From positions 1 to 64,000 of the forward strand of contig SUVA01000004.1 of the NCBI GenBank assembly GCA_015062245.1: 64,000 nucleotides of DNA, written 5' to 3'. Below, piece after piece: positions 3,793-10,743 of the stretch. Position 1 is the first letter of the stretch. Each line of letters begins with the position of its first letter. The notes under the pieces were generated by a model that searched no databases, was not told the origin of the DNA, and was given only the letters and a program-made list of their open reading frames with translations. This DNA comes from Alphaproteobacteria bacterium (GTDB taxonomy: Bacteria; Pseudomonadota; Alphaproteobacteria; CAAHEQ01; UBA3637). The position numbers and the translations under genes were made by a program.

Positions 3793-3869
3793 GGGCCTGT
3801 AGCTCAGTTGGTTAGAGCTGTCCGCTCATAACGGATAGGTCGTGGGTTCAAGTCCTACCGGGCCCACCA
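3793..3869 (+). tRNA. tRNA with CAU anticodon, probably tRNA-Ile2 (lysidine)
   Basis: A full cloverleaf of 77 nt with encoded CCA. The acceptor GGGCCTG pairs with CGGGCCC, the anticodon stem GTCCG pairs with CGGAT around the loop CTCATAA, and the T stem is GTGGG/CCTAC. CAU may be elongator Met or Ile2. The acceptor and D arm resemble alphaproteobacterial tRNA-Ile, so Ile2 is preferred. It is not initiator Met, because the 1:72 pair is intact. Its 3' end is duplicated twice downstream (see the repeats). Confidence 0.93.
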
Positions 3870-3979
3870 GAATAAAAAGCCACTCCTTTCGGGGTGGCTT
3901 TTTTCATATTTTGCAAGCCATTCGGTGAGTTCGATTTTTCATCCTTCAAAAATCGCTAAAATCCGTAACTTATCGAACT
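3855..3979. repeat. T repeat, copy 0: tRNA 3' end, terminator and 52-bp inverted-repeat box
   Basis: This holds CTACCGGGCCCACCA of the tRNA, a terminator hairpin, the stretch catattttgcaag, and a box bounded by AGTTCGAT (3928-3935) and ATCGAACT (3972-3979). Near copies occur at 5306-5430 and 7471-7594. Confidence 0.85.
3875..3904 (+). terminator. Rho-independent terminator of the tRNA
   Basis: AAAAGCCACTCC and GGGGTGGCTTTT form a 12-bp stem (one G-T pair) with a TTTC loop, followed by a T-run. Confidence 0.9.
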
Positions 3980-4027
3980 TTTGTAAACCTCCCCCTTATA
4001 AAACAAAAAGTTATAAAATCCTAACTG

Positions 4028-4996
4028 CTATTTTAGCTTGTTATAAAGCTGAGTATTATTAACCAAAACAGGATTATTCCTAGGATTCCTACGTGCATAG
4101 ATTAATGGTATATTACCTCTTCTATTTGCCAAATGAGGATCAGCTCCATTTTCCAACAGGACATCTACAATTTCCTCAATCACAGGATTGTCATTATAAA
4201 GCGCAGATATTAAAGGACTTTCATCATTGCCATTAATAAGATTTACATCTGCTCCTTTTTCAATTAATAGCTTTACCATTCGAGAGTCTCTACTAATAAA
4301 GCAAGCATGAGTCAGTGGTGTCCACCCATCTTTTATTTTTTTATTAACATCAAATCCTCGATTTAACACCCATAAAAGCTTTTCCGTATCACCAAGAGAA
4401 ATAGCTGTCTTTAATAACTCTTCCTCATCAATTTTTACTCCTTTTTTTAATAAGAACTCAATCCCATCAAGACTACCTAAAGCCGCTTCCATCGGTGTTA
4501 ACGAAAAATCATCTGATGAAGGATAATTTAAATCAGCTCCATGTTTCAGCAAAACATCAATTATATCTGGATTAATTTCGCCAGGTTGAAGAGCAGAAAG
4601 CAAAAGAGAACTTAACTCTCCTTTGTTTTTGGATTTTTTGCTATGGTTAAGCAATATCTCCAAAATTTCAGGATTCTTGGTATACATTATAGATAAAACA
4701 GAAGGATTCATATCCGATAATGCACCAGGAATCACTTCGTCGGGATCAGCTCCTTCTTTTAATAACTCCTTTACTAATTCTACATCAGCATCAGATGACA
4801 TGAGAGCAAAACTCCAAATTGATTGACCATTACACCCTGCTTTCAAAGAGGCGCCCTGATTTAAAGATTGTCTCAATAATGTAAGATCATTAGCCATCGC
4901 CGCATAACAAAGCTGTGCTTGCTTTGTTAAGTCTGTAGCATTAACGATATTACAAAATAGACAAGACATTATCAATATACAAAAAAATCTTTTCAT
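4028..4996 (-). CDS. Exported ankyrin-repeat protein (cassette 1 cargo)
   Basis: The 322-residue product has a Sec signal peptide (MKRFFCILIMSCLFCNIVNA) and then about eight ankyrin repeats covering the rest of the chain. Typical units are visible, for example DGWTPLTHACFISRDSRMVK and VDVLLENGADPHLANRRGNI. Ankyrin arrays bind protein partners, and a periplasmic or secreted site is inferred from the signal. The ATG at 4996 is chosen for its GGAGT ribosome site and signal peptide; 16 upstream in-frame codons overlap the promoter. The gene has its own promoter at the repeat edge (5016-5044) and lies alone between two repeat copies. Confidence 0.85.
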   Translation of the reverse strand: MKRFFCILIMSCLFCNIVNATDLTKQAQLCYAAMANDLTLLRQSLNQGASLKAGCNGQSIWSFALMSSDADVELVKELLKEGADPDEVIPGALSDMNPSVLSIMYTKNPEILEILLNHSKKSKNKGELSSLLLSALQPGEINPDIIDVLLKHGADLNYPSSDDFSLTPMEAALGSLDGIEFLLKKGVKIDEEELLKTAISLGDTEKLLWVLNRGFDVNKKIKDGWTPLTHACFISRDSRMVKLLIEKGADVNLINGNDESPLISALYNDNPVIEEIVDVLLENGADPHLANRRGNIPLIYARRNPRNNPVLVNNTQLYNKLK

Positions 4997-5015
4997 GACA
5001 TACTCCTTTTTTTCA

Positions 5016-5044
5016 ATTTTATCCGGTAGAAGAAAATATTGCAA
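5016..5044 (-). promoter_or_regulatory. Promoter of cassette 1 spanning the repeat border
   Basis: On the minus strand, TTGCAA (5044-5039) is followed by a 17-nt spacer and TAAAAT (5021-5016), 20 nt before the start at 4996. The -35 lies in the repeated sequence and the -10 in the unique cargo. Confidence 0.65.
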
Positions 5045-5430
5045 GAGTTTTTTCCCCTGGGTGATAAACTTAAAACAGGTTTTGGATTTTGAAAGCTAAT
5101 TCTTTTAAATCAACCGAATGGGTTGCTCGATAAGCGCTAATTGTTCCCCACCATAATCCCCCGATTCGTTCGGGGGTTTTTATATCCGCCCATCGGACTT
5201 TACAATTCCGACATCAATTCGCCTGCATTTCCATTTGGCTCATTGTGTCTCATTGGCTGCGCTACAAAACATCCGAACTCAACGGATGTTTTGCTGACGC
5301 TTGCTCTACCGGGCCCACCAAGATTAAAAGCCACTCCTTTCGGGGTGGCTTTTTTCATATTTTGCAAGCATTGTGGAAAGTTCGATGTTTCCCCTTCCCA
5401 AAATCGCTAAAATCCGTAACTTATCGAACT
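5039..5430. repeat. Intercassette direct repeat, copy 1 (R1 + T)
   Basis: This 392-bp unit is closely matched by 7205-7594. In order it holds TTGCAA and tttttcccctgggtgataaa; an R1 part with a C5/G5 hairpin plus T-run (about 5158-5185); a 10-bp hairpin (AAAACATCCG, 5267-5276, with CGGATGTTTT); CTACCGGGCCCACCA (5306-5320), identical to the tRNA 3' end; a terminator; and a 52-bp box (5379-5430). No open frame in it looks convincing. It separates cassette 1 from cassette 2. Confidence 0.88.
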
Positions 5431-5489
5431 ATTAAACTTTATTTATAATTCAACGACTTATTTAAATTCAACCCAAGTCGGGACAAAAT

Positions 5490-6533
5490 CTAAGTAATGG
5501 GCTTTGTTTTATATTTTGCTAAAAAAGGATTTTCTAACCAAGGATTTCCAAAGCAGTTATCACTGGACGCCTTACACCCACCTTGGCATTTTTTAACCAA
5601 TTTACATTTATCACAAAATTTGGGGTGTGCTTGAATGAAATTTTTTGCTGCTTCTGTTTTAAACATCTGAGACAAAGTCATATCTTTGATATTACCAACA
5701 ATAGTTGGTGAAAAAGGACACAACCTAACATTACCTAAATAATCCAATACAATAATGCTTTGATGAAATCCAACTCCACATAAAGTAAAAGAAATATGTT
5801 TATATTTTTTTGTATCAATAATACATGGTGGAATATTAATGGGTGAATGAAAGGCCATATCAGGGTGTTCAATGGCAAATTTTTCACAAATTTCTAATCC
5901 TTTCATTAACTCTAGGGGCGATAATTGTAATTCTTCCAAATATTTTTTACCATTACCACAAGGGTTAAATCGATTAAAAGAAAAATTTCGTACCCCCAGT
6001 GCATAAGATAAATTGAGTGTATTCAACAAAGTGTGTATATTTTTCTTTGTCGCCACAAAAATATGGGAAACTAATATTTTTTGTTTGACAATTTCTTGTG
6101 TAGCAAACACAGCGTTATCAAAAGCAGAAAAATTTTGGGCCTGTGTTTCGGTATCAAAAATTTTCTTATCTGCTGAAATAAAGGATATTTCAAATAACCG
6201 AACTTGATGTGCTTTCGCAAAAGCAATTTTTTCAGCATCTAAACAGGCTCCATTTGTCATAATATGGATACTTTTAACACCACTTTGTTCTGCGGCTAAA
6301 ATAATTTCATTTGTATCTGGGCGGGTATAAAATTCCCCACCTGTCAGAATTAAATCAGTGCATTTTATTTGTTGAAGCGTCTTTTTTAACAAAAATATAG
6401 TATCATTTGTATTCAAGATTTTTTGTGAATAAGCATTTGTTATTTTTTGTATATTATAGCAATGGCGACAATTCAAACAACACTGTGGGGTTGTTTCAAA
6501 AATCAATTGATGAATAAAATGTTTTGACATCAT
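5490..6533 (-). CDS. Radical SAM protein with SPASM-like C-terminus (cassette 2 cargo)
   Basis: The 347-residue protein carries the radical-SAM cluster motif C18-x3-C22-x2-C25, the GGE-type SAM motif (ILTGGEFYTRPD), and a C-terminal Cys group (LCPFSP ... FCDKCKLVKKCQGGC) like the SPASM auxiliary-cluster domain. Such enzymes commonly modify ribosomal peptides or act as anaerobic maturases. It follows the membrane-protein gene by 5 nt with no strong ribosome site, so it is probably translationally coupled. The start could be either of two adjacent ATGs (6533 or 6530). No precursor peptide is visible nearby, so the substrate is unknown. Confidence 0.88.
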   Translation of the reverse strand: MMSKHFIHQLIFETTPQCCLNCRHCYNIQKITNAYSQKILNTNDTIFLLKKTLQQIKCTDLILTGGEFYTRPDTNEIILAAEQSGVKSIHIMTNGACLDAEKIAFAKAHQVRLFEISFISADKKIFDTETQAQNFSAFDNAVFATQEIVKQKILVSHIFVATKKNIHTLLNTLNLSYALGVRNFSFNRFNPCGNGKKYLEELQLSPLELMKGLEICEKFAIEHPDMAFHSPINIPPCIIDTKKYKHISFTLCGVGFHQSIIVLDYLGNVRLCPFSPTIVGNIKDMTLSQMFKTEAAKNFIQAHPKFCDKCKLVKKCQGGCKASSDNCFGNPWLENPFLAKYKTKPIT

Positions 6534-6538
6534 TCAAA

Positions 6539-7153
6539 TTACTGCTGATAAAAAGGATCATTAGGATCAACCGTCAGATAATCCCCCATAGTTAAGGGTT
6601 CATAATAATCCTCAACGAAATAAGATAAAGGTAGTATCGGAATCACCGTAAATAAAATGACTTTTACCCAAACTTTACGATAACCATCCTTTGATTTTCT
6701 GTAAAAATAATGTAAATACCAAAAAAATAAAAAGGACCATAGCCACGCAGTAAAGCATATTATGTTCAACTCTAATAGGTTACCAGAAGCAATTAGTTCA
6801 AGGAGAAACGTAAAAATAAAGAACATTGATAATATAATCTTGCGACATTTATTCGATAACGGATACTTTGATTTCCAAATGTTTACAGCAGTAATTATAA
6901 CTCCTACGAATATAATAATCAAATTGATAATTCCAGAATCCAATAAAGGAAAAGCTAAATTTAAAGAAGAGGAAAAGTAAAATAGATTACAAAGAAAAAC
7001 AATAAGGGGAAAGACAATGGTTAAAGCCCATCCAATATAAGACAACCATCCCCAAATTCCTTCTTTCTGTTTAAAAAGTGGTTTTTGATTTGACTGAACA
7101 GGGTTCTTTAAAATCTCTTGAACATTTGCTGTTTTTCTTTCTGGTGGTGCCAT
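6539..7153 (-). CDS. Polytopic membrane protein, function unknown (cassette 2 cargo)
   Basis: The product has 204 residues. The N-terminal 45 are hydrophilic and Lys/Gln-rich, then about four hydrophobic segments follow, each Trp/Phe-rich (for example LTIVFPLIVFLCNLFYF and FTAWLWSFLFFWYLHYF). The tail is acidic (DYLTVDPNDPFYQQ). The start is the ATG at 7153 with GGAGT upstream. It is the first gene of cassette 2, directly upstream of the radical-SAM gene, and its promoter lies on the repeat border. No family is recognised. Confidence 0.75.
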   Translation of the reverse strand: MAPPERKTANVQEILKNPVQSNQKPLFKQKEGIWGWLSYIGWALTIVFPLIVFLCNLFYFSSSLNLAFPLLDSGIINLIIIFVGVIITAVNIWKSKYPLSNKCRKIILSMFFIFTFLLELIASGNLLELNIICFTAWLWSFLFFWYLHYFYRKSKDGYRKVWVKVILFTVIPILPLSYFVEDYYEPLTMGDYLTVDPNDPFYQQ

Positions 7154-7181
7154 TTTAAACTCCTTTTTTGGTTTTAAAGGC

Positions 7182-7210
7182 ATTCTACATGAAAAATTTA
7201 TTAATTGCAA
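7182..7210 (-). promoter_or_regulatory. Promoter of cassette 2 spanning the repeat border
   Basis: On the minus strand, TTGCAA (7210-7205) is followed by a 17-nt spacer and TAGAAT (7187-7182), with the start codon at 7153. It has the same geometry as the promoter of cassette 1, again with the -35 in the repeat. Confidence 0.65.
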
Positions 7211-7594
7211 CTTTTTTCCCCTGGGTGATAAACTTAAAACAGGTTTTGGATTTTGAAGGCTAATTCTTTTAAATCAACCGAATGGGTTGTACGATATCCG
7301 CTAATTGCACTCCACCATAATCCCCCCGATTCGTTCGGGGGGTTTCATATCCGCCCATCGGACTTTACAATTCCGACATCAATTCGCCTGCATTTCCATT
7401 TGGCTCATTGTGTCTCATTGGCTGCGCTACAAAACATCCGAACTCAACGGATGTTTTGCTGACGCTTGCTCTACCGGGCCCACCAAGATTAAAAGCCATC
7501 GCGCAAACGGTGGCTTTTTTCATATTTTGCAAGCATTGTGGAAAGTTCGATTGTGAAAGGGCAAAAAATCGCAAATTTCCGTAACTTATCGAAC
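7205..7594. repeat. Intercassette direct repeat, copy 2 (R1 + T)
   Basis: A 390-bp near copy of 5039-5430 in the same orientation. The tRNA 3' end CTACCGGGCCCACCA is at 7471-7485. The terminator differs in sequence (loop side CGCAAA) but keeps its stem. The final box runs from AGTTCGAT (7544-7551) to ATCGAAC (7588-7594), with the same 36-nt interior length. Confidence 0.88.
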
Positions 7595-7641
7595 CCTTAA
7601 AGTAAAATTCAGAGAAATCTCCCCATTATCCAAAAAATTTA

Positions 7642-8061
7642 TCAAAGACTAACATGCGGATATTCTTTTATTTTTTGTTTCAATTTTTCAGTATCTACCG
7701 TCACTTCATCTTCAAAAATCAATTCATCAATCGCACATTTTTCTATTGATTGGTAGGTAGAACCCATTTTATAAAAAGCAATCCTTTTTCCCAATTCCAT
7801 CGCATACTCTATCTCAAAAATGCAACCGTCAGCAATTTCACCAAAAAACCATACTTCATCTGAACGAGCAATCAAATTATTATTTCCATTACGAACCAAA
7901 TCTCTGTCCACAAGTTCATATAGAAAATATCCAAATACATTAAAAGGGTTAAGAGGTATACCTCCATGTTCAAAAACATATTTACAAACAAGCATCCTCA
8001 TAAAAAAATTCTTTTTTGATTGCGCTGTAAAAACAACTGATTTCTTTTCAATTAAGTTCAT
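7642..8061 (-). CDS. Nucleoside 2-deoxyribosyltransferase-like protein (cassette 3 cargo)
   Basis: A 139-residue single-domain protein. The central block (SDEVWFFGEIADGCIFEIE, then YAMELGKRIAFYK) matches the fold signature of deoxyribosyltransferase-like proteins of the DUF4406/DUF7768 kind, where an acidic residue before YAxxLGK is catalytic or substrate-binding. A promoter with TTGACT (8116-8111), an 18-nt spacer and TAGAAT (8092-8087) precedes it, and GAGG is the ribosome site. It occupies the third cassette by itself. Enzyme activity and substrate are not established. Confidence 0.65.
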   Translation of the reverse strand: MNLIEKKSVVFTAQSKKNFFMRMLVCKYVFEHGGIPLNPFNVFGYFLYELVDRDLVRNGNNNLIARSDEVWFFGEIADGCIFEIEYAMELGKRIAFYKMGSTYQSIEKCAIDELIFEDEVTVDTEKLKQKIKEYPHVSL

Positions 8062-8149
8062 ATTTTATCCTCAAAATAGTCAAACAATTCTATCATATTT
8101 TCTTTATTAAAGTCAACAATTTTATCGCTCTTTTCTTCGCTGAAAAAAA

Positions 8150-8297
8150 GTTAAAACAGGTTGTAGATTTTGAAGGCCAATTCTTTGAAATCATCTGAAT
8201 GGGTTGCCCGATAAGTGCTAATTGCACTCCACCATAATCCCCCCGATTCGTTCGGGGGTTTTTATATCCGCCCGTCGGACTTTACAATTCCGACATC
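8150..8297. repeat. Partial intercassette repeat (R1 only), copy 3
   Basis: From ttaaaacagg to cgacatca this matches the R1 part of the two long repeats, including the C6/G5 hairpin with T-run. It stops before the tRNA-like and terminator parts and abuts the virB4 stop codon by about 10 nt. It may serve as the terminator facing the convergent virB4 gene. Confidence 0.85.
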
Positions 8298-8307
8298 AGT
8301 TTTCCTT

Positions 8308-10743
8308 TCACGCACGTTTCAGGTATTCTTGAACAATCTGATCTGTATCGGAAAGTTCACGTTGTAATTTTTCGGCCAATAAAACGTTTTTATTACCTGA
8401 TGAATAAATCTTTAAATACGGCCCCAAGCCCGATAAATCCACATCCAAAATCACCGATTCATGGATGGCGGGGCGGGACACCAAAATAGCATATTTACGG
8501 TCGGTAAATTCTTTACCCAAAATAAAGTTCATTTCACGGGGCGAAAGGTTCCATGTGGCATAATCCGACTCGTTGGCCTGAGGGTTACGGAAAAAGATAA
8601 CCGTTTGACATTGACCACGAATCACATCACCCAAGCCGTTTTCATCCAAAAACTTGGGTTGCTGGAACGCACACAAATAGGCCTGACGTTTTTTACGACC
8701 TTCCCGCAAACCCACGATAAAGCTGTCTTTAAACATGGGGTGTTCCAACATCGGGGCCGTTTCGTCAATCATAATCATGCTGGGTGTGCCTTTGATGGTG
8801 GAAAGCGTTTGAATACGGTGCATCACATAGCTGATAACCGCAGGGGCCAAAATGGGATCTTGAAATATCGTGGTAAAATCAAAGCACATATAACGGCTGT
8901 CAATGTCCAAGTTATCCGAAGGCGAGTTAAAAATACGCCCGTATTGGTCCGTATCAATCCAACGGTTGAGTTCACGGCGCATAAAACTGTTTGGTGCAAA
9001 GCAGGATTTATACAGATTTTTAAGCAAACGCTCCTTTTGGGGCAGATATTCAAAGGCCGTGGTTACCGCACGGGCGATTTCGGCTTCTGATACGGCATCA
9101 TTACCGCCGGTAATATCACGCACCCACGTTCTTAAAAAAGCACGGTTATCCGGTGTATCGGGAATGGCAAAAGGATTTAATGAAACAGAATCTTCGCCAC
9201 CGTCAAAACGCACATAGGGCGCTCCATTCATAATGGCAAAAACTTTGGCACCATTATTGCGATCAAAAAAGTATGTATTTAAATCAGGAATACGCAAAGC
9301 CTGACCGGCCATAAAGCTGAAAAAAGTGGTTTTACCTTGACCGGTCGGACCAATCAATGCCGTATGCGCCACCGCATAAGGTTCTTCCGACACATGGAAT
9401 TGAAAGGCGTAAGGGGTGCCGGTGATGGTTCTGAACCAACTGATGGGAACAGGCCCCCAATCGGATTTTGTGCGTCCTGTCGGGGCTTTATCAATCATCG
9501 TGGCACAGGCCACAACACGTGATAAATACTGATAAGTTCTGGGATAAATGTCAAAGGTGGGGAATTGGCTGAAAAACACGGCCTGAGCCGCCCAACCATC
9601 ACGAACAGGCGTCACATTATACATTCGGCAAATGCGTTCTACTTCTTCTTGACCGAATTTTAATTCTTCCAAACTTTCGCCATACAAAATAATCGTAAGG
9701 GCATATTCATTCCAACTTTGGGCATTGGCATCATTGGCATCCAAGGCCTGCTTGGCTTCTTCAAACTGTTCTACAACGTTTTGCGAAAAGGTTGTAAAAT
9801 AGGCCATTTTTTGTTGTTGCATCACAATGGGCATAATTTTAAAACTGGGAACACCTTTTATGTTATGCATCAACGTCAATTCAATATCCAAACTTAAAAA
9901 ATCGGCAATCATTTGTTCATCCATAAAATCACCGGGTTTGCGAATGCCCATTGTGATGGATAGTTTTTCACGTTCACCGTTAAAATAACGCACCAAGCCT
10001 TCATCTTTGGTAAAATGAACATAATCGCCCGTCAATAAATCATTTAAGCGATCTTTTTTTTCAAAATGAACCATCGGTTTTGGGCGGGACAAAGGACTGG
10101 CCATTTTGGCAAACAACCAAAACGGGCTTTTATCATCATTGTTGATATTATTTTTTTCACTGAGCAATTTCGGTTCATAAACATCCATAATACTGGTCAA
10201 AGCACCGGTGGCCTGATCCAAATCTTTCATGGCATCTTTGCGATCGTTGATGGATAAAATAATGTAATGTTTATTATTAAATATGCGGTTTAAATTTTCC
10301 ATCCATAATTCGGCCACACCTTTTAAAAGTTTATTGTCTTTATAGGCCTCAGGTTCTTTTAATTCCACTTTTTCACGCAATGTTACAACACGGGCAATCA
10401 CCTGTAATTCAACCATTGAATCAATCCAACGTTTGCGTGTTTCCATTAAAACTTCACGGTCTTCGGGCAATACCAAAGTTGTATCGGCACCTTTAACCTC
10501 AAAAACACGGGCCAGACCACCGTTATGTAAATGAATCGTGGCACCGTCTTCATCCAAATAATCAAAGGGTAAAAAGTTGGCCAAACGTGTTTCAACCGGC
10601 TTTGGCAAAACCAATTCGCCCAATTTTGAAATAAAAACAAAAATCAAAAACAAGGCCGCCAAAACACCGAAAATAACCACAACCATAGAAGGGGCTGAGG
10701 CTGTTGTTATAATGTAATCAAAAATTCCGGCATCTAGATTCAT
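8308..10743 (-). CDS. virB4: VirB4-type conjugation/T4SS ATPase
   Basis: An 811-residue ATPase that powers pilus biogenesis or substrate transfer in type IV secretion. It starts with a membrane segment (about 20-42). The C-terminal motor domain has Walker A GPTGQGKTT (about residue 465) and Walker B MIMIDETAPMLE (about 658), followed by the QQPKFL and arginine-finger region typical of VirB4/TraC. The length fits the family (about 790-830). AGGA precedes the ATG, which lies 9 nt after virB3. The rest of a T4SS is not adjacent; a VirB2-like gene is at 34.2 kb. The assignment is strong, but the role in this cell is open. Confidence 0.92.
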   Translation of the reverse strand: MNLDAGIFDYIITTASAPSMVVVIFGVLAALFLIFVFISKLGELVLPKPVETRLANFLPFDYLDEDGATIHLHNGGLARVFEVKGADTTLVLPEDREVLMETRKRWIDSMVELQVIARVVTLREKVELKEPEAYKDNKLLKGVAELWMENLNRIFNNKHYIILSINDRKDAMKDLDQATGALTSIMDVYEPKLLSEKNNINNDDKSPFWLFAKMASPLSRPKPMVHFEKKDRLNDLLTGDYVHFTKDEGLVRYFNGEREKLSITMGIRKPGDFMDEQMIADFLSLDIELTLMHNIKGVPSFKIMPIVMQQQKMAYFTTFSQNVVEQFEEAKQALDANDANAQSWNEYALTIILYGESLEELKFGQEEVERICRMYNVTPVRDGWAAQAVFFSQFPTFDIYPRTYQYLSRVVACATMIDKAPTGRTKSDWGPVPISWFRTITGTPYAFQFHVSEEPYAVAHTALIGPTGQGKTTFFSFMAGQALRIPDLNTYFFDRNNGAKVFAIMNGAPYVRFDGGEDSVSLNPFAIPDTPDNRAFLRTWVRDITGGNDAVSEAEIARAVTTAFEYLPQKERLLKNLYKSCFAPNSFMRRELNRWIDTDQYGRIFNSPSDNLDIDSRYMCFDFTTIFQDPILAPAVISYVMHRIQTLSTIKGTPSMIMIDETAPMLEHPMFKDSFIVGLREGRKKRQAYLCAFQQPKFLDENGLGDVIRGQCQTVIFFRNPQANESDYATWNLSPREMNFILGKEFTDRKYAILVSRPAIHESVILDVDLSGLGPYLKIYSSGNKNVLLAEKLQRELSDTDQIVQEYLKRA

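Follow-up and report, generated by a model that had tools for sequence, protein, structure and literature searches.

Transfer RNA (tRNA) genes are the classic targets of tyrosine integrases, tycheposons are larger, tyrosine-recombinase-based units, and recombinase-less relatives of the staphylococcal cassette chromosome (SCC), the pseudo-SCC elements, are known. SCC and the Enterococcus cassette chromosome (ECC) are cassettes driven by large serine recombinases (LSRs) that occupy the 3′ end of a conserved gene and form composite islands, split by direct repeats and highly variable in content (PMC6222049; PMC7029136). At the 3′ end of streptococcal tRNA-Lys(CTT), cis-mobilizable elements (CIMEs) that are flanked by att sites and free of recombination genes grow by tandem accretion; they derive from integrative and conjugative or integrative and mobilizable elements, and tyrosine integrases are reported to favor such 3′ ends (PMC7563491). 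Archaeal integrases of the Sulfolobus spindle-shaped virus (SSV) type, also called suicidal, and the Mx8 integrase carry attP inside their own gene, which is split on integration, often into tRNA targets (PMC8371274; PMC4383910), and a 2014 survey stated that serine integrases were not known to use tRNA genes (PMC4383910). Here we describe a locus in the first 64,000 nucleotides of contig SUVA01000004.1 (assembly GCA_015062245.1, Alphaproteobacteria bacterium; hereafter the window), where three cassettes with unrelated cargo, all on the minus strand, lie directly 3′ of a tRNA-Met(CAT) gene. With a probability of roughly 0.8, the three cassettes of this array are recombinase-less derivatives of integrative elements of an LSR clade whose target is the 3′ (CCA) terminus of tRNA genes. 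Its features are as follows:

3793..3869, plus strand: tRNA-Met(CAT), the target gene (ARAGORN), 3′ end ..CTACCGGGCCCACCA
3874..3903, plus strand: tRNA terminator, contributed by cassette 1 (attL, P side)
3929..3978: cassette 1 dyad, 50 bp, GTTCGAT-N36-ATCGAAC, 59 bp past CCA
4028..4996, minus strand: cargo 1, ankyrin-repeat protein with an N-terminal signal-like segment (Pfam Ank, E 3e-27)
5070..5153, minus strand: cassette 1 far end, LSR C-terminal remnant WWGTISAYRATHSVDLKELAFKIQNLF*, matching the intact LSR C-terminus in L068; it starts at CCACCA (5148-5153), with the P′ half-site at 5125-5153
5154..5320, plus strand: mini-unit of a second repeat family, with a terminator (5158-5176) and the block AATTCCGACATC..TCATTGTGTCTCATTG, ending in the tRNA tail CTACCGGGCCCACCA (5306-5320)
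5326..5353, plus strand: terminator, P side of cassette 2
5380..5429: cassette 2 dyad, 50 bp, 59 bp past CCA
5490..6533, minus strand: cargo 2a, radical SAM/SPASM protein (Pfam; NCBIfam below cut-offs)
6539..7210, minus strand: cargo 2b, small membrane protein (DUF1129 below cut-off)
7234..7317, minus strand: cassette 2 far end, LSR C-terminal remnant WWSAISGYRTTHSVDLKELAFKIQNLF*
7318..7485, plus strand: mini-unit, second copy, tRNA tail at 7471-7485
7545..7594: cassette 3 dyad, 50 bp, 59 bp past CCA
7642..8061, minus strand: cargo 3, DUF7768 protein (Pfam 28.1 bits, cut-off 26)
8151..8234, minus strand: cassette 3 far end, LSR C-terminal remnant WWSAISTYRATHSDDFKELAFKIYNLF*
8235..8297, plus strand: mini-unit, truncated, where the array ends; a VirB4-like gene follows (8308-10743, minus strand)

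A preliminary description of this DNA had placed three minus-strand cargo units behind a tRNA, which is borne out, and its identification of ankyrin and of radical SAM plus membrane protein cargo stands, whereas the gene that it called deoxyribosyltransferase-like goes no further than a DUF7768 match just above cut-off. The separate promoter that it gave to each unit could not be confirmed beyond chance matches: promoter-like matches number 26, and shuffled sequence gives 17.1 ± 4.1. Cargo devoted uniformly to defense was considered and is not supported in the window, where only weak matches occur. The direct repeats are present (5047-5225, 7211-7389, and 8128-8306), with a core of 176 nt that is 99% identical between 5158-5333 and 7323-7498, and the tRNA tail recurs together with the terminator and the sequence downstream (3855-3982, 5306-5433, and 7471-7598). 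As had been noted for integrases, neither a tyrosine nor a serine recombinase is encoded within the array; in the window, the closest one of the tyrosine type, at ~39.8-40.3 kb, is probably XerC/D. The array and its relatives resemble CIMEs in being att-flanked, in showing no recombination or conjugation genes, and in their tandem accretion, but differ in that the parent here is a serine recombinase and conjugation genes were not seen. With tycheposons and other tRNA-anchored islands they share serial cargo units at tRNA genes.

The outer ends of the cassettes, far from the tRNA, carry the trace of their origin, each coding for the final ~27 codons of an LSR. At about 29 such ends, precisely from the reverse complement of NNNCCA onward, a minus-strand frame of the form W[YW]..[LI]..[YF]R[AT].. 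is open, in which third-position changes are in excess (0.41 versus 0.28/0.27), and the same peptide forms the C-terminus (..KTWYSVLSEYRANNIKEIDELYRLIESLSFQLQLEQAI) of an intact LSR on a chromosomal contig of a relative (locus L068, genome G017). In two other genomes, G010 and G041, a full-length LSR adjoins tRNA-Leu, its gene crossing the dyad and terminating in tRNA-encoded residues (..KTWY, then LWPDLNQHSIARNRF); in the alignment, the LSRs are identical as far as the W, after which the residues are swapped. Because the intact copy shares its terminal peptide with the cassette ends and the integrated LSRs end in tRNA-encoded residues, the LSR gene is taken to span attP. The LSR of L092 exceeds the cut-offs for PF00239 (Resolvase), PF07508 (Recombinase), and PF13408 (Zn-ribbon). 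In L060 an LSR remnant is fused directly to the far-end peptide, and in L223, at tRNA-Thr, an internally deleted LSR is joined, inside the dyad, to an end of the 59-bp type, which makes L223 the best link, a probable step from autonomous element to cassette. The cassettes, by the evidence of their ends, appear to be LSR-deleted derivatives that keep both ends of the element.

Autonomous members of the clade carry type III restriction-modification (R-M) or cytosine methylase genes, and the R-M genes point to defense cargo. No relaxase was recognized in the parent LSR elements that were read, although no systematic search was made, and relatives of the LSR were found neither in viral contigs nor, by sequence matching, among solved structures. 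As in the SSV-type and Mx8 integrases, the LSR gene would contain attP and be split by integration; those enzymes, however, are tyrosine recombinases that lose a large part of the protein, whereas the clade LSR exchanges only its last ~25-36 residues for tRNA-encoded ones and its catalytic domains stay. SCC, pseudo-SCC, and ECC elements (CcrA/B/C) are likewise LSR-linked cassettes at the 3′ end of a gene, divided by repeats and variable in cargo, but SCC targets the 3′ end of rlmH, whereas all sites here lie at tRNA genes or copies of their tails, the recombinase gene appears to span attP and to be split, and the cassettes measure ~0.7-2.5 kb. The clade LSR matches the CcrB, CcrC, and XisF models below their cut-offs (84 and 68 bits for CcrB and CcrC, cut-offs 900), and the array was rejected as an SCC because the Ccr models fall so far short and the target differs. 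A second LSR clade lies within ~2 kb of tRNA-Lys or tRNA-Pro (L124 on C9, L126, L127, L128, L130, and L131), in L124 together with prophage-like genes.

When the border was compared with the other contigs of the genome, partial matches appeared at other tRNA genes, and their common part was the 50-bp dyad. The pattern GTTCGAT-N36-ATCGAAC occurs nine times in this genome (reversed pattern, 0). The tRNAs concerned are Met, Leu(CAA), Lys(TTT), and Ser(GCT), and Gly(CCC) has a variant of the pattern. Searching GTTCGAT-N28..44-ATCGAAC in the family, which is represented by draft metagenome-assembled genomes only, gave 66 matches in 24 of the 43 genomes against one for the reversed control, and although the spacer was free from 28 to 44, the dyad measured exactly 50 bp in 62 of them. 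A CCA, either the tRNA end or an NNNCCA copy, stands exactly 57-59 or 81 bp from the dyad in 66 of 70 site entries, a set in which a few loci are counted twice; of the four exceptions, the three other than L074 have a mini-repeat inserted between dyad and CCA. We know of no SCC counterpart to a 50-bp dyad at fixed spacing. The dyad was rejected as the crossover site, since integrated cassettes hold the whole dyad at one end and half-dyads were not seen. At variant sites an insert of ~100 bp (..CGCAGACAGGACGCCGTAGGCGGTCCCGAA..) lies within the dyad (L010 4904-5045, L175, L188, and L201), with similar sequence at three tRNA types (Gly, Met, and Leu). Class II cassettes (GTTCGATTG..; L064, L066, L073, L085, and others, at Lys-TTT and Ser) have ~100 bp more of conserved sequence past the dyad, ending CGAAC, and a far end of the form W..[VI]LCK.R.

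The dyad extends to distant LSRs (the more remote of them 33-44% identical to L068), whose genes terminate within tRNA-Leu(CAG), Glu, Asn, Pro, Lys(CTT), and Thr, the tRNA-Asn case being a Legionella adelaidensis plasmid. All of these have a dyad, 50 bp long except for one of 49 bp, which lies 81 bp from CCA save in two elements, one with 82 bp and one with 104 bp, and the arms vary yet stay complementary (GTTCGCAAA/TTTGCGAAC, GTTCGGAA/TTCCGAAC, GTTCGAAAA/TTTTCGAAC, and GTCCGAT/ATCGGAC). When 399 genomes of the phylum were searched later, two further families yielded LSRs, one with its end in a truncated tRNA-Asn-like fragment and the other beside tRNA-Arg, with arms GTTCGAGGT and GTTCGCA; these two genomes, found afterwards, served as a test of the 81-bp spacing, and the dyad stood at exactly 81 bp in both. 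For comparison, 7-bp arms at length 50 starting with G occur 98 times in 1.02 million positions, true sites included. A still more distant LSR overlapping tRNA-Gln is without the dyad. The distances 59, 81, and 104 bp are spaced by about two helical turns, which is suggestive only.

The dyad could instead be a regulatory or structural element (an operator, a cruciform, or a replication or transfer origin) that is carried along with the cassettes. In favor of this, it lies beyond the ±25 bp within which an LSR core site is expected, and pairing between its arms holds whatever their sequence; yet its length equals two 25-bp LSR half-sites (PMC3783163), its arm GTTCG resembles both the P′ arm and the tRNA T loop, and the related LSRs examined that do not overlap a tRNA (L134, L135, L136, and L221) lack it. 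A regulatory or structural role is a possibility, though the lesser one.

In 8 of 13 genera, arrays are present at tRNA genes for Met, Leu, Lys, Ser, Thr, and Gly. The named relatives are uncultured gut Alphaproteobacteria; a pattern search at order level added nothing, as the order contained only the one family. Empty sites were compared on the CarD-tRNA side and at tRNA-Leu loci, the VirB4 flank being unusable because VirB4 does not stand beside tRNA-Met in relatives. The VirB4-like gene at 8308-10743 has other neighbors in congeners (L143-L153), which places the end of the array at a rearrangement breakpoint. The number of cassettes in relatives ranges from none to four, with differing cargo, at tRNA-Leu and at the tRNA-Met locus flanked by CarD. 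One terminator type adjoins the tRNA in certain genera but is located within the array in the window genome, indicating that the terminator travels with the cassette. Between genera g2 and g12, a tRNA-Leu cassette with DnaB-like and uracil-DNA glycosylase genes shows 88.7% identity over 1.68 kb, and the neighboring short-chain dehydrogenase/reductase gene reaches only 60% protein identity, a clear case, judged from these sequences, of cross-genus transfer. Related cargo is found at differing tRNAs, for example Leu/Met and Lys/Ser, and at tRNA-Thr nearly identical LSRs in three species have different cargo behind them. The repeat search in relatives thus returned differing cargo, cassette numbers that vary at a single tRNA, site-free tRNA loci, and border copies at other tRNAs, and nowhere a cargo and order fixed in all genomes. 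The cassette system proposed in the preliminary description is largely upheld by this variation, its trans-mobilization remaining an inference, but that description had missed both the origin of the ends in an LSR gene and the spread through the family over at least six tRNA types.

In the mechanism that we propose, the LSR gene of the parent circle would run through attP, in the order dyad, TGGNNN (the reverse complement of the tRNA end), and C-terminal peptide. Recombination at the tRNA end would sever the last ~25-36 LSR codons and leave them at the far end of the element, while the tRNA would retain its own sequence and gain the element's terminator. In a cassette the LSR would have been lost and both att halves and the dyad kept; each new cassette would enter beside the tRNA and shift older ones outward. 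An LSR supplied in trans could integrate and excise cassettes, a trans-mobilization suggested by the retention of both ends without the enzyme. The most likely reading of the sites is that the LSR recognizes the T loop and acceptor end as attB, with the dyad, which has the size of a symmetric attP, as an accessory binding site. LSR attP half-sites measure 25 bp, and in attB the zinc-domain motif lies 5 bp nearer the center (PMC3783163). On the P′ side the arm GYTCGRT begins 29 nt before the CCA end, and in the tRNAs that were read the T-loop GTTCRA begins 24 nt before it; this difference of 5 nt fits the LSR rule, by which the crossover would fall ~4 nt short of the tRNA end.

Several points weigh against an active, LSR-derived system. 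The P-side half-site beside the tRNA has no clear symmetric arm, so that the exact crossover is not fixed; in cassettes of the 59-bp type the P side is no longer LSR-coding, and no intact LSR with 59-bp spacing was found. An LSR of the cassette clade was not found in the genome of the window (a 94% complete assembly), and the sole LSR there, considered as a helper, is of prophage type and belongs to another clade. Metagenome assemblies may hold errors in repeats, and the cassettes could be immobile relics. As dead relics they would be old LSR insertions that lost their recombinase and change only by homologous recombination between borders. The missing LSR would suit this, as would the far-end borders of the window, merely 72-85% alike, the existence of degenerate dyads (for example C17, L175, L188, and L201), and the 99%-identical core, which resembles a recent duplication or gene conversion. 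Such relics are, however, hard to reconcile with a dyad whose 50-bp length, arms, and 57-59-bp spacing are preserved in LSR-less cassettes, with recent transfer between genera at tRNA-Leu, or with homologous cargo at differing tRNA types, and we regard this alternative as rather unlikely.

The ~390-bp repeat of the preliminary description is present and composite, comprising the LSR remnant, a mini-unit of ~150 bp, and the tail, terminator, and 50-bp dyad of the next cassette. Mini-units (150-175 bp) consist of a terminator, AATTCCRACAKCAATTC..TCATTGTGTYTCATTG, and a small hairpin, with tRNA tails of 12-15 nt, and stand in tandem at tRNA-Asp in this genome (L229, C13) and at tRNA-Met in G016 (L160). 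Their core motif occurs nine times in the genome of the window at up to one mismatch and ten times at up to two (reversed control, 0). They were also seen inserted in the terminators of other cassettes. The 15-nt tail CTACCGGGCCCACCA, correctly reported within the repeats, stems from this family, and the recombination point is most likely NNNCCA and not, as had been suggested, the tail. A tyrosine integrase might nevertheless recombine that tail as in ordinary tRNA islands, with the LSR remnants as passengers: 15-nt tails flank units 2 and 3 of the window, the tandem mini-units carry tails of 12-15 nt, and enzymes of this kind lie beside tRNA-His and tRNA-Val in the genome. This is quite improbable: the 15-nt tail is missing from other arrays at tRNA-Met, Leu, Lys, and Ser, where NNNCCA alone stands at 58-59 bp, and the long tail of the window belongs to an inserted mini-unit. 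Tyrosine recombinases of 193 aa, nearly the catalytic domain alone, lie inside tRNA-associated islands at Val and Leu (L029 5647-6228 on C26, and L056 5439-6020). Another recombinase-less insert, L026 4727-5907 (C2), lies between tRNA-Lys and a 21-nt tail copy, with repeated TGTGATGCAA-like arms at both ends, and is probably a cassette of the tyrosine-integrase type. An integron-type array was rejected, as there is no attC-like layout, the arms GTTCGAT..ATCGAAC run in the opposite order to attC R boxes, the tyrosine recombinases of the genome are not beside the array, and the sites are 50-bp GTTCG dyads with LSR remnants; integrative mobile elements exploiting XerCD (IMEX) were rejected because a dif-like 28-bp site is absent.

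No report contradicting the 2014 statement on serine integrases was found in the literature searched, itself partial. Standard island finders, which demand an integrase or more than 2 kb, would miss these cassettes because they are very small and lack a recombinase. LSRs that insert at tRNA ends without damage to the gene could be useful integration tools. That one family of serine recombinases is specialized for the universally conserved T loop and CCA end of tRNA genes, with a 50-bp accessory dyad at helically phased distances of 59, 81, and 104 bp, and sustains in gut Alphaproteobacteria a trans-acting economy of tiny recombinase-less cassettes stacked at many tRNAs and exchanged between genera is, taken as a whole, an evenly balanced proposition. 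If true, it was through a match to the T loop and CCA end common to all tRNAs that LSRs came to occupy the tRNA niche, so that one LSR design could serve many tRNA genes, and the cassette economy would be the serine-recombinase counterpart of integron arrays.

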